IMG/VR virus record: IMGVR_UViG_3300036859_000206
Location: 1-60,276 of that record
From: a virus
Strand: one strand, 5' to 3'
DNA: 60,276 nt
A program made the translations under genes and the position numbers. Below are positions 28,803-58,692 of this stretch, in pieces (the first letter of the stretch is position 1; each line of letters begins with the position of its first letter). Below the pieces are notes generated by a model. The model saw only the letters and a program-made list of their open reading frames with translations. It had not been told where the DNA came from and searched no databases.

Positions 28803-28981
28803 GTTGTACCTCCAGAGAGGTTGGCGGTGGCGTCGCGATATTCGCGTACACGATCCGCGTAGTAACGAATCTTAGCGTCGTAGTCTGTATGCTGCGGCGG
28901 CTTCGGTTCAGGCAGAAACGGGAGCGCAAGGCCGCCCGTCGCGACGACCAACGCTAGCTCGAACACCTCTCGTCGGTTCAT
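28799..28981 (-). CDS. Small membrane or exported protein
   Basis: 60 residues, starting MNRREVFELALVVATGGLAL followed by PFLPEP: a twin-Arg, a hydrophobic stretch and a Pro-rich turn, resembling a short export signal or membrane anchor. The rest is a helix (YDAKIRYYADRVREYRDATA). Overlaps portal and downstream gene by ATGA. Role unknown. Confidence 0.5.
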   Translation of the reverse strand: MNRREVFELALVVATGGLALPFLPEPKPPQHTDYDAKIRYYADRVREYRDATANLSGGTT

Positions 28982-31215
28982 GGCCCCTCCTCCGGCGGCT
29001 GCTGCGCCAGCGCTGGCGGCGAGTTGTACGTCTGCGGCGGCTGCGGGCGCGCGAACAGCATGTCGGCCGTGGGCGCCAGCGGAATCGCGTTGTGGATCGT
29101 GCCAGCGAGATTGAATGCGAGCTGCTTGGCGTCGAGCGTGTGCTCGTGCTCCTTGGCCAAGAACTCCGCCGCGCGCGCCTTCGCCAGATCAGCATCGGCC
29201 GCGAGCTTCGCGTCATGCAAATCCTTGGTCTTCTGCGCTTCGGCCTGCTGCGCCTGCTGCGCGGCCTGCTGCTGAGCGGCGGCCTGCGGATCGTTCTCGG
29301 CCGCAGCGCCGTTGAGGCGACGGATGCGCGCGATGAGCTCGTCCTTCTTCGGAAGGTCGGTCAGGTCGATCGCGAGATCGAGCAATTGGATCTGGACTTC
29401 CGGCGGCAACGTGCGGATGGTCTCGAGGAGCATCTCGGCCATCGCCATCCGCATCGTCTCGCGGTAGTCCTGCTGATCGACAACGAAATCGGCCTCGCTC
29501 TCGGTGACGTCGTTGACGAACGTGATCTGGCCGGTGTCAGGGTCGATCTGCGGCTTGTTGATCGAGAGGAATACGAGCTGGCCCTTTTCCGCGCCTTCGA
29601 TTCGAATCGTCATAGGGAGCGTGAGGTACTGCTCGGTGTTCGATAGCGTCTTCTGGCCCGAGAGCTTGATCGACAGCCGGTACAGGTCGAACACCTCTGC
29701 GGTGCCGACCGCGCCCTGCTGCTGCTTGGCGAGGATCGCGCGTCCGGAGATCGCGTTCGAGTTGAGCCCCTGGTTGTCGCGCGTAACCCCGGAACCTTCG
29801 TTGATGTGGATCTTCGCCTCGTTCATCAGCTGCACATGTGCGAGGCTGACGTCGAGGTTGTTCTCCCACATGATGCGCTTGTCTTTCAGCGCCCCGGTCG
29901 CGACCGGGATGATCCCGTTCGGCCGGTTGACCTGATCCTCGAAGACATCCTGATCGTCCTCGTCGACCGCGCCGTTCTCGACCCAGACCTTGTTCGCGGA
30001 GGCGGCTAGCAGCGCCTTCGAGCGGCGGACGTTGTACTCCTCCTGCGGATCGCGCAGGCCGCGCACGTAGCCATATGGCTGCCCGTCGCGATGACGACGG
30101 AACGCCCAGACCGGCGTGAACGGGAACCGCTTGTGCTTGTACGGCGACTTCTTCAGCGAGCAGAGAAATCCTGGGTGAAACACCGCCATCCACATCTGGT
30201 CGGCCACCGCGTCAATTAGCCCGATCTTATCGGTCTTGACCAGCGCGGCCAGCACCGGATCGCCCTCGACGTACGCGGTATGGTTGAGCTCCGTGTACTC
30301 CTCGGTCAGCGCCATGATCTTCTTGCTGGCGACCGGGCGGCGGAACCAGATTTCGCACAGGCGCACGCGGTAGCGCGAGCCGCGGCGCCACAGGCCAGAG
30401 CTCGAATATCGGATGATCGACGCGCTCTCATCGTTACCGCGGTTCGAACCCCAGAGCACGGACGGGATGTCCCAGCCGTCCTCGTCGCCAAACTCCCACT
30501 CGGGCTCGGTATAGCCGGCGGCAGCACGACGCAGTTCGTCGGCGCGCTCCGGGTACATCGCGATGGCGTATTCGAAGTCGACCCAGCGGTGGCGTACGAG
30601 GTACCGGCAGTCGGTGAGATCGTTGGCCCGCGAATACGGGTCCATGTGGATCTCTTTCCAGTCCTGGTGCCGATACCCGATCGGCAGATCCTCGCCATCG
30701 GTGCGCGCGTACTCCTCCAGCCAGCCGAGCCCAGAGATCACGGCATCCTTGAACGCCTGCGAGCGGTGCCAACCGGAGTTGGTGACGTCAGAGACGAATT
30801 TCATCAGGTCTGTCTTGATCTCCGCGAGCTTGGTGTCCTCCTCACCGCGCGGCAGGATGCGCCAGTCGATGCGCGTGCGCCGCTCCGTGCCGGTGATCCA
30901 GTCGACGACCGGGCGGATCAGGTTGAACACCAACGGGGCCTGCCCGCGCTCCATCAGGGTCGCGCGCTTCTCGGTGTCCCATTGGTCTGAATCGTAGAAG
31001 TCGTGGTCGATGTAGCGCTCGCGGCGGTTCATCGCTTCGAGATCGCGCGCCTCGCGCCACCACTCTTCGAGCCGGCGCAGGAGCTTGATGTTGTCTTCGC
31101 TGTCGAGGTTGATCCGCTTCGGTGCAGCGCGCAGGACTGGCAGCGGCGGTCCACCGATCCGGCCGCTCGACTCGCCGGCTCTCGTGGTGCGGATGTTGTC
31201 GAAGACGGCGGCCAC
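28978..31215 (-). CDS. Portal protein (P22-type)
   Basis: 745 residues from GTG 31215, chosen because it overlaps the previous TAG as TAGTG and has AAGG upstream; the reading further upstream belongs to another frame. Features: YIDHDFYDSDQWDTEKRATL, APLVFNLIRPVVDWITGTER, EEYARTDGEDLPIGYRHQDW, PFTPVWAFRRHRDGQPYGYV, and a C-terminal Gln/Ala coiled region of the kind forming a portal barrel. Length matches the long P22-like portals (about 700-750). Forms the dodecameric DNA entry ring. Confidence 0.9.
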   Translation of the reverse strand: MAAVFDNIRTTRAGESSGRIGGPPLPVLRAAPKRINLDSEDNIKLLRRLEEWWREARDLEAMNRRERYIDHDFYDSDQWDTEKRATLMERGQAPLVFNLIRPVVDWITGTERRTRIDWRILPRGEEDTKLAEIKTDLMKFVSDVTNSGWHRSQAFKDAVISGLGWLEEYARTDGEDLPIGYRHQDWKEIHMDPYSRANDLTDCRYLVRHRWVDFEYAIAMYPERADELRRAAAGYTEPEWEFGDEDGWDIPSVLWGSNRGNDESASIIRYSSSGLWRRGSRYRVRLCEIWFRRPVASKKIMALTEEYTELNHTAYVEGDPVLAALVKTDKIGLIDAVADQMWMAVFHPGFLCSLKKSPYKHKRFPFTPVWAFRRHRDGQPYGYVRGLRDPQEEYNVRRSKALLAASANKVWVENGAVDEDDQDVFEDQVNRPNGIIPVATGALKDKRIMWENNLDVSLAHVQLMNEAKIHINEGSGVTRDNQGLNSNAISGRAILAKQQQGAVGTAEVFDLYRLSIKLSGQKTLSNTEQYLTLPMTIRIEGAEKGQLVFLSINKPQIDPDTGQITFVNDVTESEADFVVDQQDYRETMRMAMAEMLLETIRTLPPEVQIQLLDLAIDLTDLPKKDELIARIRRLNGAAAENDPQAAAQQQAAQQAQQAEAQKTKDLHDAKLAADADLAKARAAEFLAKEHEHTLDAKQLAFNLAGTIHNAIPLAPTADMLFARPQPPQTYNSPPALAQQPPEEGP

Positions 31216-31409
31216 TAGTCGGCAGCCTTGGCACGCTCGCGGCGGAGTGCCGCTGTCGACCGTTTGTTGCGGGCCGCCTTGAACTGCACGCGGCCCTTGT
31301 AGACGCGGAAATCCATGCTGTGCACGAGACCACAATCGCAGCACGCCATCTTGTAGCCACACTTCACCGGCTGCACCCACTCGCCTTCTGCTGGCCGTGT
31401 GTACCGCAT
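31215..31409 (-). CDS. Small Cys-rich basic protein
   Basis: 64 residues from ATG 31409 (TGATG overlap). CGYKMACCDCGLVHSMDFRV is a zinc-binding knuckle, followed by a basic helix RSTAALRRERAKAA. Phage genomes often have such a short gene between terminase and portal. Function unknown. Confidence 0.65.
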   Translation of the reverse strand: MRYTRPAEGEWVQPVKCGYKMACCDCGLVHSMDFRVYKGRVQFKAARNKRSTAALRRERAKAAD

Positions 31410-31888: not shown

Positions 31889-32106
31889 GGCGAGGTCGGC
31901 GCGCTGTAATCGATGAACTGTTCGGGCGCCGGCTCGGCCATCTCGAACGTGGGCGGCTTGCCGGCCGCAGCGGATCGCCCGCATGACGCACAGAACATCG
32001 GCGGCGCCTCGTGACCTGACCAAGTCGGCGGTGCCATCACGTCCCCGCCGCATGAGCCGCACAGGCCCATCATCACCATGTCCATCGGAGCCGGTGTGCG
32101 TCTCAT
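31885..32106 (-). CDS. Small zinc-ribbon protein
   Basis: 73 residues from ATG 32106 (TGATG overlap with the terminase stop). Two CxxC pairs, GLCGSCGGD and FCASCGRS, flank a short loop: a zinc ribbon. The C-terminus is acidic and Pro-rich. Function unknown; co-translated with the terminase. Confidence 0.65.
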   Translation of the reverse strand: MRRTPAPMDMVMMGLCGSCGGDVMAPPTWSGHEAPPMFCASCGRSAAAGKPPTFEMAEPAPEQFIDYSAPTSP

Positions 32107-33746
32107 CAAGCCGTCCTCCAGTCGCCTCGCGCGAGTCGTCGCGATCTTACCCCATCTTTGGCGCCGGGGCGAAACTTGGAGCTGCGGTAGCCTTGCGCAC
32201 ACTGACGAAACGCGTCGGCCCCGTGGTTGGCCCACGTTTTCAGCGGCCGATCCGACCACGACTCGGTACGCTCGTTGTACTCCTTGCGGTAGCACTTGAG
32301 CGCGTTGATGAGCCCGTCGCCTTCGCCGGGCTTGGTCTCGCCGCACTTCGTCTTGTCGAACCGGCTGCGGTTGAGGAGCTGCCGAACCATTTCTATGCCG
32401 TCCGACAGTTCTCCGATCTTTGCGACCTCGACCAAGCGCCGAGCGCCGAGCGCCTCCAAAACCTGGGTGCGCGTCATGTTCTCGCTCTGCGTCCACTCGT
32501 GAACTTTGGCGTCGTGCGGGACGTGATGCTTGCCGTAGATGTAGCCGCGTTCCGCCATCACGCGCGCGTAATGCGCGGCGTTCTCGCCCGATGCCTCGTA
32601 GTAGTCGATCCAGTTGTAGAAGCCGTCGTACTCCTGCATGAAGCAGATCGCGGTCGCGTCGTCGCGCCCGATGTCCCAGAACGTGTGGACCGGCAGATTC
32701 TCGTTGTAGACGAGGTTGCAGACGCGGCCCTGCGATTCAGCCTTCGCCATCTCCTTCGCGTAGTACGCGCCTTCGACGGCTACCTTGAACGGTTCCTCCG
32801 GCGTCGACGGGAACTGGCTGAACATGGCATCGCCTTGCTCTTCCAGCTTCTTCACGTACCACGCGCGCTGCTCCGGCGAGAGCTTGCATCCCATCTCGTG
32901 CTCGACGCTCGCGAAATATTTCTCCATCTCCGGCGTGATGATGATGCCGGTCGGATCGGTCGAATACTTCGAGTCGATCCACCACGGCAGGAAGTGGAAC
33001 CGATAGTCCATCATCGTGAGCTTCTCGGTCCCAGCCGCGATCATGCGATGGAGGCGCAGCGCCTTCTGGCAGCGCATGTAGAAATCGCCGCCGGGGCCTT
33101 CCGCCGTTGACTCGATGATGACCATGTTGCCGGGCGCGATCTTGATGGTGTTAAGCGCACCGCGTTTAACTTCCTCAGCGCGAACTGGATCGCGTGCGCA
33201 AATCTTGCCGTACTCTGAAATGTGCAAAAACTGCAAAGTCGAGCCCACATGTGAAACGGCAACTTCGATCTTCGAGTCATTCTGAAAAACGAGGATTCCG
33301 CCCTCGCTGAAATCGCGCCGCTTGATCGCAATTCCTGGCGCGCACTCGGTCAGCCAATCAGGAAGGTTCTCATGCGCGAACATGATCTTCTCGCGCACGA
33401 ACTTCGCTGCGTTCTGTTTCGAGTCAGCGACGATGCCGCAGTTGACGCCCTTGCGGAATAGCGCCGTGTCCAGTGCGAGGATGCACGCGTAAGTGCTGAT
33501 CCCCTCCTGCCGCGCCTTCTCCACCAGATTCAGGTTGTGGAGATTCTTGTGTAGCTCGGCTTGCGCGACGTTGAACTTGAAGGTGACGACGATGCCATCG
33601 GCGTCGCGGATCTTGTACAGATTGTTCAACCGCCAGTCGCGACTCTTGAGGTTTTGCAGGAACCCACGCAACTTCGCCAATTCAGCCTTCGTCGGCTGCT
33701 CGTGCTTGAGCGCCATTCGCTCCTCGGTAGCGCGCTGCATTTCCAT
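32106..33746 (-). CDS. terL: Terminase large subunit
   Basis: 546 residues. ATPase: deviant Walker A in EKARQEGIST at about 76-85, Walker B HISEYG at 175-180, coupling motif IIESTAEG at about 210-217. Nuclease: acidic WDIGRDD with Asp358 and C-terminal HGADAFR with Asp511. Packages DNA into the procapsid with the small subunit. The KARQxGxST form of Walker A is usual for a subgroup of phage terminases. Overlaps the next gene by TGATG. Confidence 0.95.
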   Translation of the reverse strand: MEMQRATEERMALKHEQPTKAELAKLRGFLQNLKSRDWRLNNLYKIRDADGIVVTFKFNVAQAELHKNLHNLNLVEKARQEGISTYACILALDTALFRKGVNCGIVADSKQNAAKFVREKIMFAHENLPDWLTECAPGIAIKRRDFSEGGILVFQNDSKIEVAVSHVGSTLQFLHISEYGKICARDPVRAEEVKRGALNTIKIAPGNMVIIESTAEGPGGDFYMRCQKALRLHRMIAAGTEKLTMMDYRFHFLPWWIDSKYSTDPTGIIITPEMEKYFASVEHEMGCKLSPEQRAWYVKKLEEQGDAMFSQFPSTPEEPFKVAVEGAYYAKEMAKAESQGRVCNLVYNENLPVHTFWDIGRDDATAICFMQEYDGFYNWIDYYEASGENAAHYARVMAERGYIYGKHHVPHDAKVHEWTQSENMTRTQVLEALGARRLVEVAKIGELSDGIEMVRQLLNRSRFDKTKCGETKPGEGDGLINALKCYRKEYNERTESWSDRPLKTWANHGADAFRQCAQGYRSSKFRPGAKDGVRSRRLARGDWRTA

Positions 33747-33749: not shown

Positions 33750-34262
33750 TCAATGCTTCTTGGCAGCCGCATCGCCCCCGGACTTGTGAATGTCGTCCAT
33801 CACCTCGCCGATCAGGTCGCGGAAGGCGCCACCAAGCAGCGGACGGTCCTTGCTGCCCTCGACCACGACAGGAGGCCGTGCCATCCCGCCAAGCCGTTCG
33901 AGGAAGAACGTCAGGGCCGCGTCCTGCTTCGGGTTATTGTCGTCCAGCGCGATGCGCGCCTTCTTCGAGCGCATGATGAGCAGCAGTTCGTCCTTGGCGT
34001 GCGCGAGCTCGTCGGCGTAGACCTTCTCCAGCGTCTTGCGCGTGATCCCAAGCGCTTTGGCGATCCGGTCACGCGGCACGTCGCAGGCTTCGGCCACCGA
34101 AACGATGTCGCGGTGCGCCTGAGTCGGCTTGTGCGCCTCACCATCGCCCACGCGAGGAATGCGGCACGAGTCGATCGGTTTCTCGACGTGTTGCTGCGTC
34201 GGCGAGCGCGAGAGCAGTTCGCGGAGTTGTTCGTGGTCGATGCCGGATTTTTGCTTCGTCAT
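33750..34262 (-). CDS. terS: Terminase small subunit (probable)
   Basis: 170 residues immediately before terL. Contains a helix-turn-helix-like segment VSVAEACDVPRDRIAKALGI plus TRKTLEKVYADEL and a coiled region, as in DNA-recognition small subunits. The C-terminus (FRDLIGEVMDDIHKSG) could contact TerL. Identified from position and helix pattern. Confidence 0.7.
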   Translation of the reverse strand: MTKQKSGIDHEQLRELLSRSPTQQHVEKPIDSCRIPRVGDGEAHKPTQAHRDIVSVAEACDVPRDRIAKALGITRKTLEKVYADELAHAKDELLLIMRSKKARIALDDNNPKQDAALTFFLERLGGMARPPVVVEGSKDRPLLGGAFRDLIGEVMDDIHKSGGDAAAKKH

Positions 34263-34618
34263 CGCATTGCCTCCTCAAGCCGACACACGCCACCGCAGAG
34301 CGGCAGCGCTCGGTTGTCTATCGCCCATTCGCGCCCATCGATTGTTGCGACTGCGAAAGAGTGAACGCGACCGCCATGCAAATCGGACAGCCGCAGCGTA
34401 ACAATGCGGCTACGAATACCTCTCGCGCTGAGCTGGCCCACAATGGCAGCCGCATAGCCGGAACAGCTTGGGTCTGCGCTGTGCGCCTGGAGTAGCGCGG
34501 GCGGGCGGTCGTCGATGACGATGCGGCAGAGTGAGCTGGCATAGCAGCGCTCCTGCTCGGTAGCGAGTTCGGCGGCCGTGGGCGGGTCGAACAGAGCGAG
34601 GACTGCGGCGAGGATCAT
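34259..34618 (-). CDS. Secreted transglutaminase-like cysteine protein
   Basis: 119 residues from ATG 34618 (ATGA overlap). MILAAVLALFDPP is a short export signal. Catalytic pattern of the transglutaminase/BTLCP superfamily: Cys52 in DPSCSGYAAAIVGQL followed by ARGIRSRIVT, His86 in RVHSFAVATIDG, Asp101 in WAIDNR. Five further Cys suggest disulphides, fitting an exported enzyme. It could cleave or crosslink proteins outside the cytoplasm. Lies between the trypsin-like protease and terS. Smaller than most family members. Confidence 0.65.
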   Translation of the reverse strand: MILAAVLALFDPPTAAELATEQERCYASSLCRIVIDDRPPALLQAHSADPSCSGYAAAIVGQLSARGIRSRIVTLRLSDLHGGRVHSFAVATIDGREWAIDNRALPLCGGVCRLEEAMR

Positions 34619-35511
34619 GGCAGCACCACGAACTGCCCGAGAAACGCCCGAGCCGCAGGCGTGCCCAGCTGTTGCAGCGTCGTGTGGTCCGAGCAATGCT
34701 CGTCCACGCTGACGATCACACCAACGACCGTGTTGCCATCCAGTACCGGGCCACCACTGTCCTGCCAGCAGGCGTTGCTCGCACCGCTGACCCGAATCTC
34801 CTCGCCGCGACCTGAACGGTAGTGCGCTGTGCCTGCCTGCCTGACCTTGGCGTAGACGTTGGGGTCCTCGCGATACTCAGTGACCCCGTAACCAACCAGC
34901 GTCAGCGTAGGACCGCTAGTGAGCGCTGCGTACTGATTGAGGCGCGGCAGTTCGGGGTACGTGATGCGCCATGTTTGCGGCATCTGCCTATGCGGGAACG
35001 CACCCACGTCGACCACAATCGCGGCAAGGTCCAGGCCACTGGCTGGGTAGAGCGTTGCGTTAGCCCGGCGCGGTATCGCATCTGTTATCACCGGCTCGAA
35101 TGTGACCGTCACCCGCTCGATGCCACCGGACCACGAGCAGTGCGCGGCGCTCGCCATGACGTTACGCGATACCAACACAGCCGAGCAACGGGCGTACATG
35201 TGGCCGGTGTTGCCCGGTGCGACGACGGCACCAACAAGAGAATGCGCGTTGCCGTCGGGGTAGCCGTGCGTAATCTTTGACTCGCAACCGGACGGGATGC
35301 CTGTCGAGCAGCCGATGGATTCCGCACGCACCGCTCCAGCGACAGCCAGTGCACTTAGGAACAGGAACAATTGTAGATGATGCCCACCTGGATACCGATC
35401 AGACATGTGCTTGGACAATGGCTTACGCAGCTGCCTGTACAGATAGATACAGACGCCCATGAGAAATAGTCCGGCGAGGACGAGAAGCGAGATGGCAAGT
35501 AGGCGGATCAA
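34615..35511 (-). CDS. Trypsin-like serine protease, membrane-anchored or secreted
   Basis: 298 residues from TTG 35511, which overlaps the previous TGA as TTGA; ATG 35406 would give 263 residues beginning at a signal peptide (LQLFLFLSALAVAGAVRAES). Chymotrypsin-fold triad in TTG numbering: His124 in VMASAAHCSW, Asp161 in GLDLAAIVVD, Ser252 in CWQDSGGPV. An N-terminal membrane helix (LLAISLLVLAGLFLMGVCIY) precedes the signal-like segment if the TTG start is used. Cys pairs around His and Ser fit extracellular disulphides. Confidence 0.85.
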   Translation of the reverse strand: MIRLLAISLLVLAGLFLMGVCIYLYRQLRKPLSKHMSDRYPGGHHLQLFLFLSALAVAGAVRAESIGCSTGIPSGCESKITHGYPDGNAHSLVGAVVAPGNTGHMYARCSAVLVSRNVMASAAHCSWSGGIERVTVTFEPVITDAIPRRANATLYPASGLDLAAIVVDVGAFPHRQMPQTWRITYPELPRLNQYAALTSGPTLTLVGYGVTEYREDPNVYAKVRQAGTAHYRSGRGEEIRVSGASNACWQDSGGPVLDGNTVVGVIVSVDEHCSDHTTLQQLGTPAARAFLGQFVVLP

Positions 35512-36044
35512 TGCAGCGTCCCCAACCACTGTGCCGCGCAGGCTGCCTCACCAGCTACGCTGTAGTGCACGCCGTCCGTCGTCATCGTGTTACCGTCATC
35601 CGATCCCTTAAGCCATACGCGCTCATCGGGGCCCGAGCGCAGGAACGAGCGTCCCGCGATCAGCATGTCGATCCATCCCACGAACTCGTCGGCCTTGGCG
35701 TCGTAACCGCGCTTCCACGGCCGCATCAAGTACAGGGTCGCCTGCGGCCACTTCGAATGGATGGCGTCCAGCATCGTGCCCATGTCCGCAACCCACTGCA
35801 CTTGTGTGGCCGATACGAAGTCATTAACTCCGATATTGATTAGAACTACGCCATGGTAGTCCGGTTGCGCCGCGAGCTTGGCGCCGATATTCGCAGCCCA
35901 GTAGCTCGCACCACTTGCGGCCGCACCGATGTTGTCCGAGCGCCACGTCGCAACGCCGGCGTCCGCCGCATTGAGGTCGGCGGTCAGCGTCGCGGGCCAG
36001 GTATTGCCGGCCGTGTAGGTTTTGCTGTCGCCTATCTCAAGCAT
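35508..36044 (-). CDS. SGNH/GDSL hydrolase
   Basis: 178 residues from ATG 36044 with GGAA about 6 bases upstream. Block I LEIGDSKTYTAGNTW with Ser7, block III INIGVNDF with Asn74, block V TDGVHYS with Asp157 and His160. SGNH enzymes in phages are mostly esterases or deacetylases acting on cell-surface polysaccharides or on capsule. Between the tail-tip/adhesin genes and the protease, so probably acts on the cell surface. No signal peptide seen. Confidence 0.85.
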   Translation of the reverse strand: MLEIGDSKTYTAGNTWPATLTADLNAADAGVATWRSDNIGAAASGASYWAANIGAKLAAQPDYHGVVLINIGVNDFVSATQVQWVADMGTMLDAIHSKWPQATLYLMRPWKRGYDAKADEFVGWIDMLIAGRSFLRSGPDERVWLKGSDDGNTMTTDGVHYSVAGEAACAAQWLGTLH

Positions 36045-36063: not shown

Positions 36064-36960
36064 TCAAAAGGAGCCGCACACCACGTGCAGGACCTCCCCA
36101 TCGGCGAAGCTGCCGCTCGGAGCGCTGAAGGTCGCGCTGGTCGTCGTGGTCGCGGGCTTCGTGTCCCCGCTCACCGAGCCCTGCGCGTTGCAGGCCGGGG
36201 CCGTGGCGTAGGCGCTGCCAAACGTCAACGTGCAGGAGGCTGGTGAGCCAGTCCCAACTGTGATGCGCGCGAACGCGCCCTTGCCGCTCACACTCGGTGA
36301 CGCGCCGCAGTTGCCAACACTGTGCGAGATACCGCCGCCGATCAGATGCTTCGTCGTTGCGTCCGCCGCAATGACGTTGCCGCTCGCATCCGTCGTGAAC
36401 AATCCGCCAGCGCCGTTATAGGTCGTCGCGATGAGGTTGCCGTTGTACTGGAATTGGAACTTGGTCACGCCCAGATACTGGAGACGCAAGATATCGGCGT
36501 ACGTCGCGCCGCTGGTCTGGTTGATGATGAGCCCGCCGTCCGACTGCACGTTGAGGTTGCAAGTGCTACCCGTCATCGCCAAGCACTGCGGTGGAGTGAC
36601 CGGGAGCGTCGAACCACCCCCACTAGGCGGCGTAGCGCAGATCGCAGCACCTGTCGCCGCGACGTTGCCGACCATGAACTGACCAGCGCTGCACGACGTG
36701 AATGAATAGACCGGCCCGAGTTGATCGGCGACGCAAAGGACAGAGCCGTTGCTCGCAATGCCATAAACGACTTGCCCTGGCGGGCACTGGCCACCGAAAC
36801 TACCGGCAGTGCCAGTTATTGCCACTTGCGCCGTTGAGTTATCGGCGTGGGTGACCGTTAGCGAGCCAGCGATGGTGTCGGCGAGCGCCGCTGCCGACCA
36901 TAGAGCGATAATCAGCCAAACTACCGTGGTGGAAAACCTAAATATGCCCGTGCTTTTCAT
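36064..36960 (-). CDS. Tail-tip/adhesin-like protein with signal peptide
   Basis: 298 residues. Starts with a classic signal peptide: basic MKSTGIFRFSTT, hydrophobic VVWLIIALWSAAAL, then ADT cleavage. The rest is Gly/Ser/Thr/Ala-rich beta sequence, with GGLIINQTSGATYADILRLQ and GGLFTTDASGNVIAADATTK, like fibre or autotransporter passenger repeats, and a Cys-poor immunoglobulin-like end. Export of a fibre-like protein is odd for a tail protein and may indicate a host-surface or lipid-coat role. Confidence 0.5.
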   Translation of the reverse strand: MKSTGIFRFSTTVVWLIIALWSAAALADTIAGSLTVTHADNSTAQVAITGTAGSFGGQCPPGQVVYGIASNGSVLCVADQLGPVYSFTSCSAGQFMVGNVAATGAAICATPPSGGGSTLPVTPPQCLAMTGSTCNLNVQSDGGLIINQTSGATYADILRLQYLGVTKFQFQYNGNLIATTYNGAGGLFTTDASGNVIAADATTKHLIGGGISHSVGNCGASPSVSGKGAFARITVGTGSPASCTLTFGSAYATAPACNAQGSVSGDTKPATTTTSATFSAPSGSFADGEVLHVVCGSF

Positions 36961-36963: not shown

Positions 36964-37845
36964 TCACCAGCAAGCGATAATGATGAGACCATCCCCTCCG
37001 GGACCTCCGGGACCTCCGGTGACTCCGGCGCCGCCACCTCCACCTCCACAGCACTGAGCGGCACTACCACCACTACCACCAGTACCAGATGCGCCGATTG
37101 CCCCGCCGCCGCCGCCGCCAAGCCCGAACAATGGGTTCCAGACAAAATAACCGTGAGCCCCAGCATTTCCGCCGAGCGCCCCGCCAAGCGCGGATGGAAA
37201 GGTGTTGTAAATAGGTGTGGAATTGCCGCCGGCGCCAGCGACGTCACTGGTATTGGAGCCGCCACCTCCGCCTCCACCAAGAAATAGTCCCACAGTCGCG
37301 TTGCTGCCTCCTGCCGAGGCCCCACCGGCTCCGCCGTTCGATCCGGCAGATGCTATGACTATACCGCTTTGCAAGAACGCGCCCGTAACTGCTGTTGCGG
37401 CCGCTGCTCCTGAAGACGCGCCACCGGCAGCCCCGGTTCCGGCACCGCCGCCGCCACCGGGGCCACAACTAGCGAGTGTGGTGTTTAGGTTCGGCCAATA
37501 CAAGATCGTAGCCGTGCCATCCGTTCCGGCCACCCCAGAACCAGCGCTGCCAGCCCCGCCGATGCCGACTTTGAAAGCGAGGTAATCCGGGCAACGGTGC
37601 GCTGGTAGCAGAAGACGCAAAATGGCGCCCGTGCATCCGCCGCCACCGCCGCCCTTCTGGCTACCCGATGCAGCACTAAAACCACCTCCGCCGCCGCCTG
37701 CGGCCCCGGCCATGAAGATATCAACCCATGATATGCCCTCCGGCCTTATCCATGTGCCACTCGGTATTGCGGCACTGCCAGTTTTGAATATCTGATAGCG
37801 CTCATTCTCGGCGCCGGGCGGATAAAATGGCAGGACCGGCAGCAT
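36964..37845 (-). CDS. Glycine-rich tail-tip adhesin
   Basis: 293 residues. A non-repetitive N-terminus (GTWIRPEGISWVDIFMAGAA) leads into many poly-Gly blocks (GGGGGGF, GGGGGGCTG, GPGGGGGAG, GGGGGGSN), ending GGPGGPGGDGLIIIACW. This is the pattern of receptor-binding adhesins with polyglycine-II sandwiches, as in T-even gp38-like tips. Likely binds the host receptor. Immediately downstream of the fibre genes. Confidence 0.7.
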   Translation of the reverse strand: MLPVLPFYPPGAENERYQIFKTGSAAIPSGTWIRPEGISWVDIFMAGAAGGGGGGFSAASGSQKGGGGGGCTGAILRLLLPAHRCPDYLAFKVGIGGAGSAGSGVAGTDGTATILYWPNLNTTLASCGPGGGGGAGTGAAGGASSGAAAATAVTGAFLQSGIVIASAGSNGGAGGASAGGSNATVGLFLGGGGGGGSNTSDVAGAGGNSTPIYNTFPSALGGALGGNAGAHGYFVWNPLFGLGGGGGGAIGASGTGGSGGSAAQCCGGGGGGAGVTGGPGGPGGDGLIIIACW

Positions 37846-37848: not shown

Positions 37849-38277
37849 TTAGTAGTCCTTGCCCTCACCAATCGCAAACCATCCGCTCGCGACGGCGGTC
37901 CCTAGAACGACGAGAATCTTCCACCCAGCCGGGATCGGACGGTTATAGCCCCAGAAGAGGTCAGGCGATGCCGCCGTGGCGCTCCCTGTCGTCGCTGGCA
38001 ACGTGTACTCTCCGATCAATTGATTGTTCGCCGCCGATGTGTTTGTGCTGCCGTTGTTGAGGAAGAAGCGCGCCACGGTTGCTACGTTGTTATTTCCGGA
38101 GCCGCCAGATGCGCGTAGGCGAACGCCGCTCAACCATGATCCATTCGCTCCGGCCGTGAAGCATGTCGTTACCGTACCTGTGCCGTCCTGCGCGGTGTTT
38201 GCCGCAGTGATCGCGGCGTTGCCAAGACCGCCTATATTAGACGTCAGTCCCCAAATTGGTGTCGTATTGGCAGGCAT
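37849..38277 (-). CDS. Small tail-fibre-associated protein
   Basis: 142 residues, beta-rich: TPIWGLTSNIGGLGNAAITA, GANGSWLSGVRLRASGGSGN, NNQLIGEYTLPATTGS, then SPDLFWGYNRPIPAGWKIL. Resembles short fibre-tip or chaperone-type proteins. Cotranslated between the large fibre and the glycine-rich adhesin. Confidence 0.6.
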   Translation of the reverse strand: MPANTTPIWGLTSNIGGLGNAAITAANTAQDGTGTVTTCFTAGANGSWLSGVRLRASGGSGNNNVATVARFFLNNGSTNTSAANNQLIGEYTLPATTGSATAASPDLFWGYNRPIPAGWKILVVLGTAVASGWFAIGEGKDY

Positions 38278-38279: not shown

Positions 38280-40652
38280 TCAGAAGGTCGCAAGGTTAAG
38301 GGAGAGCGCCCGGACGAGTCCGAGCGATATCGATGCGGTTATTCCAAGCGTAGTACGTGCGGTAGCGGCATCAGCGTCGTCTAGCAGTGACAGGCCGAAA
38401 TCCGTTATCGCTTTGGCGGCCAAATCGCCGCTCGAAGCGCGCGCTGGGAAGGTGTTTGCAGCGAACGCGACCTGAGCGACGGTATCGGCGCCGCTGCCAA
38501 TAGGCAACGCATTCGCGGCCCAATTCTGCGCAGCGAGTGCAGCCAGCGTTGCATCGGAGGCTTGCACGTCCGTACCGATGACTACACCGAGTGTCGTGCG
38601 GGCAGCGCTGGCGTCGGTGTCGTCAATCAGCGACAGCCCGAAATCGGTGATGGTCTTCGCGACCAGATTCCCACTCGCCGCTCGAGCCGGGAAGGTGTTC
38701 GCCGCGAACGTTACCTGGGACAACGTGTCGGTACCGCTGCCTATTGGCAATGCATTCGCGACCCAATCAGCGGCCGCAAGGGCAGTCAAGGTCGGGTCGA
38801 GCGACTGTGCGTCGGTTATCCCATAACCGGACAGCGTGGTAGGCGCGCTAGTGACTTTTGACCACGCGAGTGACGTAATCCAACTCGGGTTCGCATAGGA
38901 TCCACTCGTCAATACCAATGTTGACGATGGAATACTCGTGTCCTTAATGAGCTTACCAGTTGAACCGTCATAGACGGCTACATCACCATCGGTAGCCGAG
39001 GCGGGCCCACTCACCGCACCAACGATGTTGGTCTGGATCACGTTCCAGTTAGCGCCGACAGCGGCTTGGTCGCCGCTTGCGCTGCCATCGATCTTGCAGA
39101 GGAAATAATCCCCGGCCTCTACAGTGATCCCGCTGGCGCCACCGATCTTGCCGGCGACGCTCGCGACGTATAGGTGACCGGCATCTGCGGCTGGGTAATT
39201 CGGGTTCCCAGAGCAGTCCGTCGCCCCTTTGTACACCACCGCATCGGATGCGGCGATCAGGGCATCGACATACGCCTTAACGGCTTTTTGCGTCGCGATC
39301 CTGGCGTCCGAGTTAGCGGTGAGTGCGGTATCAGTGTCGCTTGCAAGCAGCGCGGCGCTGCCGAGACCGAGAGTCGCTCGAAAGGTCGCTGCGTCCGTAT
39401 CGTCAAGCAGGCTGCGGCAGAATGCGGTCAGGTCCGCCAGCGCGGCGGTCTCTGCCGCAGTGAAGTAGGGAAATTTATCTGCTGCGCTTGATAGCGCTGC
39501 CAGCGCTTGGAGCTCCGGATCTAGTCGAGCATTGGCTAACGTGCCGGAGGAAATGTTGCTGGCGCTGGTGGTGTCGACCCACGCTGACTGCACCAGTGTA
39601 TTGCCGTTGATCGAAACCGTACGTGCGGAGAAGTCGCCACCGATCAGCGGCGTTGCCGTGTTGGTGACATCGATGAACAGTCCGTTTGAGCCTGTCCATA
39701 GTCCTCCGGCGTTATAGCCTAGGAAAACGTTACTGGACCCGGTTGTCGTTCCGCCGCCACCAGATGCTGACCCCAGGGCTGTGTTCTTTGAGCCTGAGGT
39801 CATTCCGTTCATCGACTGCCGACCGATTGCGACGTTATCGAATCCGGTCGTTATCTTATCCATCGCTCGGAAGCCAACGGCGACGCAATTCTGCGCGGTG
39901 CTGCCGCTCACAACACCGTTGAGCGCCTTGCCACCAATAGCTACGTTAGCGAACCCCGTCGTGTTGTAGACCATCGCGTAAGTGCCGACGGCGACGTTCT
40001 CGTAACCTGTGGTGTTGGCATATAGAGCCCCGGCACCAAAAGCGCTGTTGTCTATCCCCGTGGTCAGGCCGGTAAGCGTCAGCGTCCCAAAACCGGCATT
40101 AGCGGTGCCCGTCGGAGCGGGCGGAAAACCGAATCCGGCGAATGTATTGCCCTCTGGATAATCTCTGGTTCGAAAAGCGGGAAGATCCACGATGCCGCCA
40201 TTGAAGGTTAGCGTGAACCCAGCCAGATTAAAGCTCGTGGTCTCTATCAGCGCCCCACCAAAACGTACGTCGTCCCCGATCCTAGTGATGCCATTGTCGA
40301 ACGTGAGACTAGAGCCGGCGGCGCCTAGAACCCACGAACTCGATCCGGCGTCCCACTTCCACACGTCGCCGTCATTGGCGCCGGTCGACACCATGTAGAC
40401 CGTCTGCGTGCCTGAGTTGTAGCCGATCGGGCTCGTAGCGGCGACGACGCCCGGAGCGCCGTCAGCACCGGGCGCACCAGCCGCGCCATCCAGACCACGC
40501 GGCCCTTGCTGCCCAACCGTGAGAACCAAAGGCGTCGCCGCATCGGCGATCACTGTCGCTTGGTTCACACCAGAAGACAGAACGCCGCTATCGCCATCAT
40601 CGATGCTCAGCACCGTAGTCTGGCCGCCGACGAATAGCACTCCTGGCTTCAC
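38280..40652 (-). CDS. Tail fibre with collagen-like and YadA-head-like repeats
   Basis: 790 residues from GTG 40652 (GTGA overlap). A collagen-like Gly-x-y stretch (GPRGLDGAAGAPGADGAPG) near residue 50-70; then a series of NxAxG head repeats (NVAVGTYAM, NVAIGGKAL, NVAIGRQSM, NTALGS), as in YadA-type trimeric adhesins; then a Lys/Asp-rich connector and two 70-residue repeats at the C-terminal end (ALPIGSGTDTLSQV / ALPIGSGADTVAQV). Expected trimeric receptor-binding fibre. Confidence 0.8.
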   Translation of the reverse strand: MKPGVLFVGGQTTVLSIDDGDSGVLSSGVNQATVIADAATPLVLTVGQQGPRGLDGAAGAPGADGAPGVVAATSPIGYNSGTQTVYMVSTGANDGDVWKWDAGSSSWVLGAAGSSLTFDNGITRIGDDVRFGGALIETTSFNLAGFTLTFNGGIVDLPAFRTRDYPEGNTFAGFGFPPAPTGTANAGFGTLTLTGLTTGIDNSAFGAGALYANTTGYENVAVGTYAMVYNTTGFANVAIGGKALNGVVSGSTAQNCVAVGFRAMDKITTGFDNVAIGRQSMNGMTSGSKNTALGSASGGGGTTTGSSNVFLGYNAGGLWTGSNGLFIDVTNTATPLIGGDFSARTVSINGNTLVQSAWVDTTSASNISSGTLANARLDPELQALAALSSAADKFPYFTAAETAALADLTAFCRSLLDDTDAATFRATLGLGSAALLASDTDTALTANSDARIATQKAVKAYVDALIAASDAVVYKGATDCSGNPNYPAADAGHLYVASVAGKIGGASGITVEAGDYFLCKIDGSASGDQAAVGANWNVIQTNIVGAVSGPASATDGDVAVYDGSTGKLIKDTSIPSSTLVLTSGSYANPSWITSLAWSKVTSAPTTLSGYGITDAQSLDPTLTALAAADWVANALPIGSGTDTLSQVTFAANTFPARAASGNLVAKTITDFGLSLIDDTDASAARTTLGVVIGTDVQASDATLAALAAQNWAANALPIGSGADTVAQVAFAANTFPARASSGDLAAKAITDFGLSLLDDADAATARTTLGITASISLGLVRALSLNLATF

Positions 40653-41264: not shown

Positions 41265-41603
41265 CTACTTGATGACGCCGTTTTTCCGTAGGTTTTCGAT
41301 GCACAGCACGCACGCGTCGCCACGCTTTTCGCAAGCCTGGAGGATCGCATCATTGACGCTCGGCTCGAGCTTGCCATCGCGCATGACCGGCTTGCCGCAG
41401 ATTACCGCGTCCATTTCGTAGGCGGCCTTGAGCTGGTCGCAGGTTCCATCCGTCCAGCGCGGAAGCGGGACCAGTTTTCCGCACGGGACGAAGCACTCCT
41501 TCGGGCAATCGGCCGGAACCGGCTCCGGCTTTCCGATGATGCGACGTGCCGTCTCGCAGCCCGACAACAATACGAGCACGGCGAGGATCAGGGCGAGGCG
41601 CAT
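41265..41603 (-). CDS. Lipoprotein, probable outer spanin (Rz1-like)
   Basis: 112 residues from ATG 41603, with GGGAGA upstream. A lipoprotein signal, MRLALILAVLVLLSGCETAR, with lipobox LSGC and mature Cys. The mature part is Cys- and Pro-rich (PADCPKECFVPCGKLVPLPR). Follows the inner-spanin-like gene, so an outer-membrane lipoprotein partner is the best guess. Longer than typical Rz1. Confidence 0.65.
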   Translation of the reverse strand: MRLALILAVLVLLSGCETARRIIGKPEPVPADCPKECFVPCGKLVPLPRWTDGTCDQLKAAYEMDAVICGKPVMRDGKLEPSVNDAILQACEKRGDACVLCIENLRKNGVIK

Positions 41604-41605: not shown

Positions 41606-41956
41606 CTATCTCCCGGCGTTGCTGGCGTCGACTACCGTCGCGCCAACCTTGCACTTCGGGTCGAAAACGACGCTGACCTTGAGCGGTTGCTGCGCGCGAG
41701 CGGTTCCACTGCGCACAATCGCCAGGAGCGGCCCCATCGCCGCGGTAACGGCTGCCGCGTCGGCGGCGGCCTGGTCGGCGACTGCCGTAACCTGCGCGTC
41801 CTTGGCCGCCTTGTTCTTGGCGTTCTCGCGCTCCCAACGACTATTTTCGTCGGTCTTGCCTTCGACGTACCCTTGGTGGTGCTGCCAAACTCCCCAGCCC
41901 CATCCGCTGCCGATGGCGAGTACGCCGATCAGCAGATAGACGCCGAGAACGTTCAC
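41606..41956 (-). CDS. Inner spanin-like membrane protein (Rz-like)
   Basis: 116 residues from GTG 41956, which overlaps the upstream TGA as GTGA. One N-terminal membrane helix (VLGVYLLIGVLAIGSGWGWG) then a periplasmic helical region rich in Ala, Lys and Glu (RWERENAKNKAAKDAQVTAV) and a small C-terminal domain with FDPKCKVGATVVD. Type-II topology with periplasmic coiled coil fits an inner-membrane spanin. Confidence 0.65.
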   Translation of the reverse strand: MNVLGVYLLIGVLAIGSGWGWGVWQHHQGYVEGKTDENSRWERENAKNKAAKDAQVTAVADQAAADAAAVTAAMGPLLAIVRSGTARAQQPLKVSVVFDPKCKVGATVVDASNAGR

Positions 41957-42093
41957 GGCAGCAGCAGCAGCGCGGCGAGCTGCCCTCGAGTCCAAGTATA
42001 GGGCTTGCGCCATTTCTCCGGCAGCCAGGACGGGCGGACGAATAACACGCTCAAGCCGGAAGCCCACGTGACGATCAAAAGGAACGTGCTCAT
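41953..42093 (-). CDS. Small membrane protein in the lysis cluster
   Basis: 46 residues from ATG 42093, with AGAGAGG upstream. One membrane helix (FLLIVTWASGLSVLFVR) then a Trp-rich basic stretch. GTGA overlap to the spanin and ATGA overlap from the gene before. Could be an antiholin, pinholin or spanin accessory; no family recognised. Confidence 0.55.
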   Translation of the reverse strand: MSTFLLIVTWASGLSVLFVRPSWLPEKWRKPYTWTRGQLAALLLLP

Positions 42094-42179: not shown

Positions 42180-42685
42180 GGTGCTGCCGGCGTCGACGTG
42201 ACCTTGGTCGTCGATGTCCCGTCAGCCGCCTGCTCAATTTCGACCACTTGAGACGGCGGAGCTGCCGGCGCCTGCGGAGGCGGCGGCGCACCAGCCCAAC
42301 GCGGGATCACGAAGGTGATAATCGCATCGATCAATTTGTTAATGACCGGCGAGCCTATGCCCACCAGGATCAGCAGGAACCACCAGATACCCAACTCCTT
42401 GAGCTTGATCTGGACGGCGTACAAGAGGAATGCCCACAGCGCGACCTCGAGGCAGGCCATCTGCACGATGTACTGCGAGCGCACCTTGCCGTCCGGACCA
42501 CGCAAGGTATCGAGGAGATCGAACGCTTTGCTCTCGTCCCGAGACGCCCGCATCAGCATCAGGATTTGGAACGACACCAGCATGAACAGGATCAGCCCGA
42601 GGGCCGACCGCTCGGTCGACAGTGCGTTGGCGAGCCCTGTGAGGAGCCCACCCATGTGATCGAATAGGGCGAGGAAAAATTCCAT
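42176..42685 (-). CDS. Putative holin
   Basis: 169 residues with three membrane helices: ALGLILFMLVSFQILMLM, then VQMACLEVALWAFLLYAV, then GIWWFLLILVGIGSPVINKL, followed by a soluble Pro/Ala-rich tail ending TKVTSTPAAP. Directly follows the endolysin (TGATG overlap) and precedes the spanin-type genes, so a holin is the natural role. No family recognised with certainty. Confidence 0.6.
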   Translation of the reverse strand: MEFFLALFDHMGGLLTGLANALSTERSALGLILFMLVSFQILMLMRASRDESKAFDLLDTLRGPDGKVRSQYIVQMACLEVALWAFLLYAVQIKLKELGIWWFLLILVGIGSPVINKLIDAIITFVIPRWAGAPPPPQAPAAPPSQVVEIEQAADGTSTTKVTSTPAAP

Positions 42686-43239
42686 CAGTTCAGGCCCAGG
42701 CGAGCCTTCGCTCGCTCATAGAATATTTCGCGGCGCGCGATGTTGGTCAGCCCGCCGTTGACCAGCCGCGTCACGCGTCTGAAATCGCGACGATCTGCCG
42801 CATCATCGATGCGCCGGTCCCACCAGAACGCGCAGGCGGCGAACGCGCCCCAGGTTGGCGACTTCAGTTCATCCGGATGCGCGACCAGATCCACCCCTAC
42901 CCGCTTGGTGTCGAGCAGGGTATTGAGGCGTTCGTATGCCCCGCGACCGGTGTGCTCGATCGGCCCGCGGCCACGATAACGATAACCGTCTCCCGCCCTG
43001 ACATTCCCTAGGTCGTGCCGCCCCTCATAGCTCAGCTGCGTCTTCGTCGGGCCCCAGATCTCTTCCACAAAGTGCAGCTCGCCGCTCTCTTCCGCGATGG
43101 TCGCCAGGAAGGCGGCGTATTCGATCGGCTGGTCTACCTCGTAGCGCTTCATCGATGACGTGAGCGGGACATACCACGCGTCGATGACCTTCGCGCAGTT
43201 TGGCATGACGTAGACGAAGTCCTCCTTGGTGAGGATCAC
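42685..43239 (-). CDS. Endolysin, GH19 chitinase/muramidase-like
   Basis: 184 residues from GTG 43239 (GTGA overlap). GH19-type glycosidase motifs: AFLATIAEESGELHFVEEIW with the presumed catalytic Glu at 51 (the usual HES is EES here), then YEGRHDLGNVRAGDGYRYRG and RGPIEHTGRGAYERLN, the substrate-binding loop. It hydrolyses peptidoglycan. No signal peptide, so release depends on a holin. Next to the holin-like gene. Confidence 0.85.
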   Translation of the reverse strand: MILTKEDFVYVMPNCAKVIDAWYVPLTSSMKRYEVDQPIEYAAFLATIAEESGELHFVEEIWGPTKTQLSYEGRHDLGNVRAGDGYRYRGRGPIEHTGRGAYERLNTLLDTKRVGVDLVAHPDELKSPTWGAFAACAFWWDRRIDDAADRRDFRRVTRLVNGGLTNIARREIFYERAKARLGLN

Positions 43240-43511
43240 AGGCACAGCGCCTCCAGCGCGTCGTCGTATTGGGTCGTCGCTTGCTCCTTGCACGCCGGCA
43301 CATCATGGGCTGTATCGCACTTGCGGTACTCGACGTTGAATGTCGCCCGCGCCTCCTGCTGCTTGAGGATCAGCTGCTCACCCTGCGGGCATTGCGCGTG
43401 CGTGGCGACCGGCTGTTCCGGCGGTGCTGGCTTCGTGCAGCCATGCGCGAGGATGATGGCGCTCAAAACTGCGCCGGCGAACAGGACCCCAATGGCGGCG
43501 CGTGTGCTCAT
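43236..43511 (-). CDS. Small lipoprotein-like protein
   Basis: 91 residues from ATG 43511 (TGATG overlap). MSTRAAIGVLFAGAVLSAII followed by LAHGCTKPAPPEQPV is a membrane segment with a possible lipobox (LAHGC). The mature region has four more Cys and a long helix (LILKQQEARATFNVEYRKC). A second outer-spanin candidate or other envelope protein. Confidence 0.55.
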   Translation of the reverse strand: MSTRAAIGVLFAGAVLSAIILAHGCTKPAPPEQPVATHAQCPQGEQLILKQQEARATFNVEYRKCDTAHDVPACKEQATTQYDDALEALCL

Positions 43512-46734: not shown

Positions 46735-46954
46735 GTCGTGTTCAGTGGCTCGTGAGGCTATTCAGTGTTGACCATCTCTGGCCGGCATGAGCAGGCTGCC
46801 CCTAGGCGCCGCTTGGCCGCTTACGCAACACCGCTGTCCACCGCAGGATAGTGAGCCAATCTCCCTACGCGCGTCGTTCAAGGCCGGCGCCATCCCGAGG
46901 TGGCCGGCTCACCTGTGCACTCGCTGTGGGGAGCAGCGATCGGGATTTTCGGTG

Positions 46955-47025
46955 AGCGGACTACAGGAATCGAACCCGTCTGAGTGGGTTGGAAGCCCAC
47001 CGCCTAACCTCTCGGCCAAGCCCGC
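46955..47025 (-). tRNA. tRNA-Gly (anticodon UCC)
   Basis: Leftward cloverleaf: acceptor GCGGGCT / AGTCCGC (7 bp, one G-U), D-arm with GAGAGGTTA loop, anticodon stem GTGGG / CCCAC enclosing loop CTTCCAA (anticodon TCC), T-arm with loop TTCGATT. The 3' CCA is not encoded. It would read GGA/GGG glycine codons. Only tRNA in the window; its variable loop is short. Confidence 0.93.
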
Positions 47026-57559: not shown

Positions 57560-57928
57560 TTAGTCCTGAACTAGGCGCACTTCGTCGTCGGCCAGTGCTT
57601 CACGCTGGATGATGACGAGGTAGTTGCCGGGGGGCACCGCGATATCGTGATGGTCGCCGGTCGGGCGGCCATCGTGCTCGATGTGCTTGAGGCTGGTCTC
57701 GCGGATGACCTTGAGCGCGCGCTCGACGACGTTGTTGGCGTCGGTCATGGTGAACTCGGTGACGTCGGCGGCGTCCATGCAATGACTGTGCCCGCTGCTT
57801 TCGCCAAGCGCTAGCGTAATGCGTTTGCCGGTTGGCTTGACCTTCTGCGCGTTGGTCAGTGCGGACAACGGCAGGAGCATAACGTCTCCTTGACGGACCA
57901 TCTTCGACTCGACTTTCTTACGTGCCAT
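57560..57928 (-). CDS. Conserved phage protein, QGDV family
   Basis: 122 residues with AGGAG upstream. QGDVMLLPLSALTNAQKVKP, ALGESSGHSHCMDAADVTEF, then HHDIAVPPGNYLVIIQREAL: the pattern QGDV... GExTGHxH... PPGxYxVxxQRE recurs in small proteins encoded beside DUF6745-like genes. Fold resembles a beta-barrel; biochemical role unknown. Overlaps the HAD gene stop by 11 bases. Confidence 0.7.
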   Translation of the reverse strand: MARKKVESKMVRQGDVMLLPLSALTNAQKVKPTGKRITLALGESSGHSHCMDAADVTEFTMTDANNVVERALKVIRETSLKHIEHDGRPTGDHHDIAVPPGNYLVIIQREALADDEVRLVQD

Positions 57929-58469
57929 TTCGTACTCCTAGGTGCCGCGCTTGCGGCGTTGGTTTAGGACATCGCTTGCCTGCTAGGCGCGTGGCGTATG
58001 CTTTGACACGCGACCAGTCCAGCGGATGCACCCACAGTTGGCGGAGGACGCACCCGAGAGCGCGCATCGGCCTGTCGTCTTTGTTCCATGGCCGGAAGGC
58101 GCGCAGAGCGTCAACATCCGGCCATGTGCCGGTAAACGTGATTGCGCGATCGTCGATCGAAATGAGCGCGGGAGGCTTCGTGAGTGGGAATTCGATTGCG
58201 GCTATGAGGGTACTCGGCCACTGCGGTTCGCTGCCATTCGACTGTGCCTCAATCTCGCGTTCCATCCATGTGCGCATCGCGTCAATGCCGCCGTCTTGGT
58301 TCGATCGTGTGCTGAACACCATAATGCGAAAATGTTTTACGGCCTCACGTAAGAACGTAGCCGCACCAGGAACCATCGGGTCCGGTATTACGTCCGCGCC
58401 CTTCCATCTGCTCGTGTAGCTGTGCAAAACGCCGTCGAAGTCTAGGCACAGGATCGGCTTGTCGCTCAT
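57918..58469 (-). CDS. HAD-superfamily phosphatase-like protein
   Basis: 183 residues from ATG 58469, preceded by GGAGGAAGG. HAD motif I LCLDFDGVLHSY with the nucleophile Asp and acid/base Asp; motif II FRIMVFSTRS; motif III-IV ALISIDDRAITFTG. The C-terminal 50 residues are Lys/Arg-rich. Could be a 5'-nucleotidase or polynucleotide 3'-phosphatase; substrate not readable. Confidence 0.8.
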   Translation of the reverse strand: MSDKPILCLDFDGVLHSYTSRWKGADVIPDPMVPGAATFLREAVKHFRIMVFSTRSNQDGGIDAMRTWMEREIEAQSNGSEPQWPSTLIAAIEFPLTKPPALISIDDRAITFTGTWPDVDALRAFRPWNKDDRPMRALGCVLRQLWVHPLDWSRVKAYATRLAGKRCPKPTPQARHLGVRNGT

Positions 58470-58491
58470 ACCTTCCTCCAATTTTACAGGC

Positions 58492-58692
58492 TCACAGATC
58501 GAACCCATCGCGGAATAACTGATCCGGACGACAATCCACCACCCCGCTAAGCTGATTCCCAGGGACACTCAGCGCCACCCCAGACACCGAGCACCCCGCC
58601 GTCCCAACCGTCGTGCCGTCGAGTAGGCGGATGGTGATATTCGAGGTCGTGGCCGGCGTGTATAGCGCCAGCAGGATCACGAGAAGGTTCAT
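58492..58692 (-). CDS. Small secreted protein
   Basis: 66 residues from ATG 58692 (ATGA overlap). MNLLVILLALYTPATTSNIT is a short signal sequence; the rest is beta-like with Thr/Val/Gly and two Cys, ending RDGFDL. Followed by the HAD gene. Function unknown. Confidence 0.55.
   Translation of the reverse strand: MNLLVILLALYTPATTSNITIRLLDGTTVGTAGCSVSGVALSVPGNQLSGVVDCRPDQLFRDGFDL

Follow-up and report, generated by a model that had tools for sequence, protein, structure and literature searches.

A trypsin-fold protease apparently built for export, with a fibre esterase and a probable small hydrolase, between the fibre cassette and the terminase genes of a podovirus

The locus

The stretch of DNA analysed, here called the window, is a virus record of 60,276 bases (IMG/VR IMGVR_UViG_3300036859_000206). 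Judged by its genes, the phage is a podovirus, distant kin of the Bcep22-like phages (Burkholderia DC1, Erwinia PEp14 and others). It carries a P22-type portal and a Phage_capsid_3 capsid, and its large terminase subunit (TerL) shares no more than about 41% identity with any phage record and 44% with any viral contig (tblastn and TerL alignment search). The late genes, all on the minus strand, follow the order endolysin, spanin genes, fibre cassette (40652 to 36064), SGNH hydrolase, trypsin-like protease, transglutaminase-like (TG-like) protein, putative small terminase, TerL and portal:

42685..43293, minus: endolysin (phrog_181, E=2.8e-46)
41606..42067, minus: inner spanin (Rz-like), a weak match (phrog_2536, E=0.019)
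41265..41603, minus: outer spanin, an Rz1-like lipoprotein (phrog_456, E=1.3e-4)
38280..40652, minus: tail fibre protein (phrog_4636, E=6.5e-16; phrog_2631, E=4e-11)
37849..38277, minus: fibre-cassette protein of 142 aa, without a family match in Pfam or PHROG
36964..37845, minus: glycine-rich minor tail or fibre-type protein (phrog_754, E=1.6e-5)
36064..36960, minus: fibre-cassette protein of 298 aa with a Sec-type signal peptide and 10 Cys (sequence reading)
35508..36044, minus: SGNH/GDSL hydrolase, 178 aa, no signal peptide (PF13472, E=6.3e-11; phrog_13362, E=4e-4)
34615..35511, minus: S1A (trypsin/chymotrypsin-fold) serine protease, 298 aa, export-type and zymogen-like (PF00089, alignment A4, model)
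34259..34618, minus: putative transglutaminase-like cysteine hydrolase, 119 aa, Cys52/His86/Asp101 (PF01841, E=0.0064, below cut-off)
33750..34262, minus: putative small terminase subunit (position, weak HTH matches, ATGA coupling to the TG gene)
32106..33746, minus: large terminase subunit, TerL (phrog_2, E=6.5e-25; tblastn matches in 719 phage records)

An earlier note on this DNA had placed three consecutive coupled genes at 34259-36044, and it had them right: the three ORFs all lie on the minus strand within that interval, and four-base overlaps occur at the three junctions before the small terminase gene (TTGA between SGNH and trypsin-like, ATGA between trypsin-like and TG-like, ATGA between TG-like and putative small terminase), so that these four genes can be read as a translationally coupled run. 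The terminase genes do adjoin the three, as was also claimed, though the direct neighbour is the putative small subunit and the large one comes next. Codon-usage scores (0.18 for SGNH, 0.12 for trypsin-like and 0.13 for TG-like) fall inside the spread of the window core (mean 0.18, sd 0.12), the reference being 15 core ranges of which one, 28978-31300, is out of frame.

The SGNH gene

The SGNH ORF, from an ATG at 36044 to a stop at 35508, has the GDS, GVND and DGVH blocks (Ser, Asn, His) that had been picked out beforehand, and its match to Pfam Lipase_GDSL_2, at 43.5 bits, exceeds the curated cut-off of 32.9, so that its identity as an SGNH hydrolase was well called. The domain begins almost at residue 1, with no signal peptide before it. 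The family phrog_13362 also matches the SGNH-bearing fibre-cassette protein of L039 (E=1e-5). In the relative G012 the gene order is TerL, fibre-type proteins, a 584-aa protein with an SGNH domain and a portal-size gene, the SGNH protein being preceded by a fibre-type protein with a signal peptide; the SGNH proteins of G012 and the window match phrog_13362 in regions that overlap. In Skulduggery the SGNH domain lies within a frame of 1182 aa.

The gene is, as its setting and family matches indicate, the last of the tail-fibre cassette and encodes an ordinary fibre-module esterase; ordinary because phage SGNH fibre enzymes are established acetyl esterases (PMC13123978), and stand-alone SGNH proteins adjoining fibres are described there also. 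It resembles the fibre-module SGNH esterases such as G7C gp63.1 and the receptor-binding proteins (RBPs) of Klebsiella prophages (PMC13123978) in having the SGNH domain beside or within fibre proteins, but differs from them in being a separate 178-aa protein without fibre fusion.

Both the window (36064-36960) and L039 (10310-11362) have a fibre-cassette protein that starts with a Sec-type signal peptide, each beside an SGNH gene; the phages are divergent, and BLASTP found no likeness between these two proteins.

The trypsin-like protease: fold

The ORF of the trypsin-like protease begins with a TTG at 35511, seven bases 3′ of a GGGGA, and ends at 34615. Its match to Pfam Trypsin (E=3.4e-6, 27.5 bits) lies above the curated cut-off of 20.6. 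In alignment A4, which joins it to 19 of 79 bacterial loci encoding secreted S1 peptidases, the catalytic triad His124/Asp161/Ser252 is invariant, as are C109, C125, C248 and C273, which make up both canonical cysteine pairs (C42-C58 and C191-C220 in chymotrypsin numbering). The AlphaFold model, built with the 19 relatives of A4, has a mean pLDDT of 81.7 and aligns with S1A structures (8vis_B) at Z 22.5 and rmsd 2.9 over 198 residues (VIA-align); 1000 of 1000 re-aligned chains were at Z >= 8. The structure prediction that had been proposed as a check thus keeps the S1A fold, and the assignment of the modelled protein as an S1A double beta-barrel protease is solid. A trypsin-like enzyme with intact His/Asp/Ser and a signal or anchor had been claimed, and Pfam, A4, the model, and the helix and signal peptide considered below all agree with it.

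Sequence searches of the PDB with the SGNH, trypsin-like and TG-like proteins gave no match for any of them. In a viral structure library the trypsin-like model matched mostly proteases of eukaryotic viruses, with no named phage protein among the best 50 matches listed, and PADLOC returned only RT-Protease_XI (E=0.0068) over the trypsin part, taken as a fold-level likeness. A prohead maturation protease was considered and rejected because the protein is of exported type and its gene lies outside the portal-capsid stretch. The more general proposal of the earlier note, that the three could mature virion proteins, is unlikely for enzymes of exported type.

The trypsin-like protease: N-terminus and active site

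Four segments of the protein are of note, signal peptides being called here by hydropathy and A-x-A-type reading alone:

35440..35502, minus: first hydrophobic helix, residues 4-24, then RQLRKP (Kyte-Doolittle 19-residue mean up to 2.8; model helix 2-39)
35323..35376, minus: signal-peptide-like segment, residues 46-63, candidate cut after VRA (hydropathy and A-x-A-type reading)
35275..35322, minus: propeptide-like insertion, residues 64-79, ending in Lys79 before Ile80 (absent in 69/72 readable bacterial relatives)
34756..34764, minus: Gln250-Asp251-Ser252, equivalent to chymotrypsin 193-195, with Gln replacing the usual Gly193

With a membrane helix followed by a signal peptide the N-terminus is of export type, and the protein looks built to be exported. 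Between signal peptide and Ile80 lies a stretch of 16 residues, two of them Cys and the last a Lys, which we take to resemble a vertebrate zymogen propeptide; the pLDDT of the model is below 50 at residues 62-79. In chymotrypsin-numbered PDB entries such as 5wi6, chain residue 17 is the partner of model residue 81, from which Ile80 corresponds to position 16 and Lys79 to position 15, and the predicted cleavage site would be directly between them.

The bacterial relatives are arranged otherwise. From a three-sequence start alignment (A2) at least 229 relatives were obtained from 591 stretches in genome contigs, and 80 bacterial loci (L101-L180) were kept; one (L112) failed the motif filter, leaving 79, and the Ile16 motif could not be located in 7. 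Among these matches listed, the Ile16 motif is directly preceded by an A-x-A-type signal-peptidase site in 69 of the 72 readable cases, the 3 failures being due partly to motif mislocation. Such enzymes should be active once exported. For the bacterial secreted S1 peptidases L101-L180 a zymogen stage would, in those 69 of 72 readable cases, be needless. The window protease shares with them the common S1A fold, the triad, both cysteine pairs and a signal peptide, at an identity of 23-34% in A4 and 25-35% in tblastn segments; whereas they appear to be matured by the signal-peptidase cut itself and carry Gly193, the phage form is marked by the extra helix, the propeptide and Gln193, which are, as far as the alignments can tell, new details separating it from its bacterial relatives.

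Position 193 deserves attention on its own account. It is Gly in 79/79 bacterial sequences (among the matches listed) and in 4/4 other viral ones, 83/83 in total, and the window protease, with Gln250, lacks this usual Gly of the oxyanion hole. Gly193 is usual without being strictly required, human mesotrypsin being active with another residue. At position 189 (by manual count) the window protease has Asn, so that trypsin-like cleavage after Lys or Arg is not to be assumed, and Gln193 together with Asn189 makes both activity and specificity uncertain. It could be that the genes are non-catalytic or decaying copies, with the oxyanion hole spoilt by Gln193 and the TG-like gene a remnant. The occurrence of Gln193 in 0/83 other sequences, the long branch of the window protease in the tree (2.22) and the score of the TG-like protein below the PF01841 cut-off all fit that reading; but the triad and both cysteine pairs are intact, codon usage is normal, the frames are open and coupled, and residues other than Gly at 193 do occur in active enzymes, as mesotrypsin illustrates. 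Decay is the least probable of the explanations considered.

Relatives of the protease in bacteria and phages

An export-signal protease of trypsin fold had been supposed rare in phages, and the searches support this. No tblastn match to the trypsin-like protein was found in 50,697 phage records, even at E<=10, and profile searches of viral contigs gave one S1A relative with a first profile (76 stretches) and three with a deeper one (32 stretches). The tblastn search of the phage collection found none either for the trypsin domain, for the relatives L091, L104, L202 and L201, for the TG-like and SGNH proteins or for the C93 protein of the relative phage G005; that nothing appeared at E<=10 suggests that the sensitivity of that search is low. 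Single-protein scans, which need exact 8-residue words and so reach close relatives only, gave no relatives in viral contigs (trypsin-like, TG-like and SGNH) or in genome contigs (trypsin-like). In the parts of the literature consulted, trypsin-like proteases are annotated in Rhizobium and Sinorhizobium T4-like phages (PMC10783043) and PF13365 in staphylococcal phages (PMC6507118); those parts contain none recognised as an exported late phage protease.

Four other viral cases are known from these searches. In L200 the gene of an S1A protease with a signal peptide overlaps that of an SLT lysozyme by four bases; in L201 an S1A protease with a lipoprotein-type signal is encoded between a LamG fibre and TerL; in L202 the neighbourhood of a signal-peptide S1A protease includes a GH108 endolysin and an exported protease of the papain family (PF00112, E=7e-42); and in L092 an exported S1 protease, then an S8 subtilase, lie within the P2-like baseplate genes of a prophage. 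Only L200 of these four is directly coupled to a lysis gene. TerL is present in 4/5 of the S1A-bearing viral records, the window included, and was not found in that of L202. Two details may be recorded separately: the papain-family cysteine protease and the S1A protease of L202, both exported, are close together (3629-4579 and 5836-6753) on a viral contig of 71 kb, and the S1 and S8 genes of L092 (5800-8792) overlap and run against the direction of the baseplate genes.

All four resemble the window protease in being export-type trypsin-fold enzymes encoded in late, lysis or baseplate regions, but their identity to it is 20-23%, they have a C-terminal extension and, in three of four, a GYGC-GGGGGNDG stretch, and they form a separate branch. 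In the tree, where long branches were noted, they group together (100/100) while the window protease falls among the bacterial enzymes (94/96). With the viral four apart from the window, at least two label changes and so at least two captures by phages are called for; the tree implies that phages recruited bacterial secreted S1 peptidases more than once.

The adjacent 298-aa fibre protein, of exported type and with 10 Cys, brings up the possibility that the enzymes process the phage's own exported or fibre-cassette proteins, this one, just upstream, being an example, and L039 too has a signal-peptide fibre-type protein beside its SGNH protein. However, in the neighbourhoods read no comparable partner was seen next to the other exported S1A proteases. 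Fibre proteins normally assemble in the cytoplasm, which is a further count against this reading, and it is considered improbable, though less so than decay.

The closest relatives, among the matches listed, are secreted S1 family peptidases of Chloroflexota, Actinomycetota, Massilia and others. This, and the S1 and S8 pair inside the P2-like prophage of L092, would suit a secreted exoenzyme that is cargo of benefit to the host or lysogen, whether picked up by accident or kept as a conversion gene. Against it, the gene is within a fully coupled late operon with fibre cassette and terminase and is not a separately transcribed moron, promoter and terminator counts being at chance level with no promoter excess; nor was an integrase found among the window ORFs scanned (part of all ORFs). 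Cargo is thought only slightly less improbable than processing of the phage's own proteins.

The small transglutaminase-like gene

The TG-like ORF starts with an ATG at 34618, and its Cys52/His86/Asp101 are numbered exactly as the earlier note had them. The match to Transglut_core (PF01841) covers profile positions 43-103, including Cys, His and Asp, at 17.2 bits against a cut-off of 23. There are four further cysteines besides Cys52, and the signal peptide is weak, with no basic residue and a hydrophobic core of about 10. The small exported transglutaminase-like protein that had been described therefore keeps its three residues and their spacing, while its family match falls short and its export is doubtful. 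Its model has the expected order of secondary structure (helix 52-65 from the Cys, strands 85-93 and 96-101), but the pLDDT is 45, and the structure search, for which such a model is too poor to be meaningful, gave no structural match. That all three are secreted or surface hydrolases holds for the trypsin-like protein, with its membrane helix and signal peptide, weakly for the TG-like one, and not for the SGNH protein, which is without an export signal.

The spacing of Cys, His and Asp, 34/15, is that of HvyA (C192/H226/D241), and the three residues are shared with the bacterial transglutaminase-like cysteine proteinases (BTLCP, peptidase C93; HvyA, LapG), from which the protein differs in its 119 aa, in having no Pfam C93 match and in having no profile support alone. 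The PF06035 (BTLCP) profile had no match in the window. G005 has a true C93 gene (PF06035) next to a fibre gene, and in a single BLASTP comparison its product matched the TG-like protein at E 9e-4. Profile comparison did not support C93 membership: the pair (A5) against C93 (A6, 5 of 14 C93 loci) gave 92%, but this is due to the G005 sequence, which gave 91.9 by itself, and the window protein alone failed, its hhalign score of 12.15 comparing with a median of 11.09 and a maximum of 16.28 for 60 shuffled copies. A match in L185 was due to chance and was set aside. In the relative phage contig L183 a true BTLCP gene (7061-7492) follows closely on a fibre gene and that of a small lipoprotein. The TG-like protein is probably a small hydrolase of the transglutaminase kind.

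The likeness to HvyA bears on superinfection exclusion or receptor removal, whereby protease and cysteine hydrolase would clear proteins from the cell surface or the periplasm and so keep released progeny from being wasted on debris or on cells already infected; an HvyA-like block of capsulation by the small enzyme is possible within it. The export signal of the trypsin-like protein is in keeping with this. HvyA, a periplasmic BTLCP with the same spacing, prevents capsulation and alters phage susceptibility (PMC4241560), and in a set of river viruses BTLCP heads the auxiliary genes in frequency (PMC11283719). However, the score of the TG-like protein within the shuffled range leaves it unsupported as a C93 member, and with HvyA cells become more open to its phage rather than less so. 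Exclusion is unlikely, yet ahead of cargo, own-protein processing and decay.

Conservation of the three genes

That the trio might not be conserved as a unit had been named beforehand as what would count against the idea, and so it turned out: the trypsin-like gene is in 0/42 terminase relatives. The TerL alignment search gave 596 relatives, of which 80 loci were kept (a single-sequence TerL scan of viral contigs gave no relatives). Family searches covered 43 records, 42 of 88 loci and the window; PF00089 was found in 1, the window alone, PF01841 in 3 at E<=0.1 and over cut-off in 0/43, PF13472 in 4 (2 over cut-off) and PF06035 in 1, which was G005 and not the window. With tblastn against the 88 loci there was no match at E<=1 for the trypsin-like and TG-like proteins and one weak match, L034 (E=0.006), for SGNH. 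The conserved trio was rejected; the island is, on present comparisons, one ordinary fibre esterase, one unusual exported-type protease and one probable small hydrolase.

Interpretation

The explanation preferred, to which we give about even credence, is that this stretch closes a late operon in which lysis genes and the fibre cassette are followed by the three genes and then terminase. The SGNH protein would serve the fibre module as an esterase, O-acetyl groups on surface polysaccharide being its most likely substrate. The trypsin-fold protein would be a bacterial secreted S1A protease captured by the phage and remade as a membrane-tethered zymogen which, late in infection, would insert in the inner membrane and be cut by signal peptidase, be kept inactive by its 16-residue propeptide, be activated by a cut after Lys79 and then attack proteins of the envelope or surface at about the time when cells lyse and progeny leave them. 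The TG-like neighbour would probably be a second exported hydrolase, of papain/transglutaminase fold. What the analysis establishes is that the genes exist and are coupled, that the SGNH and trypsin-like proteins have their assigned folds, that the protease has an N-terminus of export type and, by comparison, a propeptide, and that proteases like it recur elsewhere close to lysis or fibre genes. Its timing late in infection, its activation, its targets and its purpose we infer: its place in the operon points to late expression and the signals in its sequence to export, and S1A genes found again in the late regions of viral contigs unrelated to this one suggest that it acts on the envelope at or near lysis or release.

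A broader version is that phages captured exported chymotrypsin-fold proteases on more than one occasion for extra envelope attack during lysis and release, often with a second exported protease class (S1A with papain-fold in L202 and perhaps the window, S1 with S8 in L092), the window form having been remade as a membrane-tethered zymogen, with a propeptide specific to the phage, that would be stored until it is switched on at lysis. This is put forward tentatively, as doubtful though better placed than exclusion.

Phage lysis of Gram-negative hosts is usually described in terms of holin, endolysin and spanin. If the preferred explanation is true, an exported zymogen-type late protease would add to that scheme the proteolysis of envelope or matrix proteins, and the similar settings in unrelated viral contigs hint at a little-studied route of attack on the bacterial envelope. 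Should the protease be ordinary after all, phages would still be seen recruiting bacterial secreted S1 peptidases more than once.

Other features of the window

A virion-type protein of 1921 aa (9128-14893, minus) has a GGDEF domain at residues 608-703 (Pfam E=6.2e-8) with an intact GGDEI motif, and this part matches 7 PHROGs of unknown function; it is possibly an injected diguanylate cyclase. In the early region a 504-aa protein (56039-57553, minus) matches DUF6745 (E=1.5e-30), and near its gene there is a sub-threshold HAD_SAK_2 match at 57918-58568. The window has a single tRNA-Gly (TCC) gene, at 46954-47025 on the minus strand.
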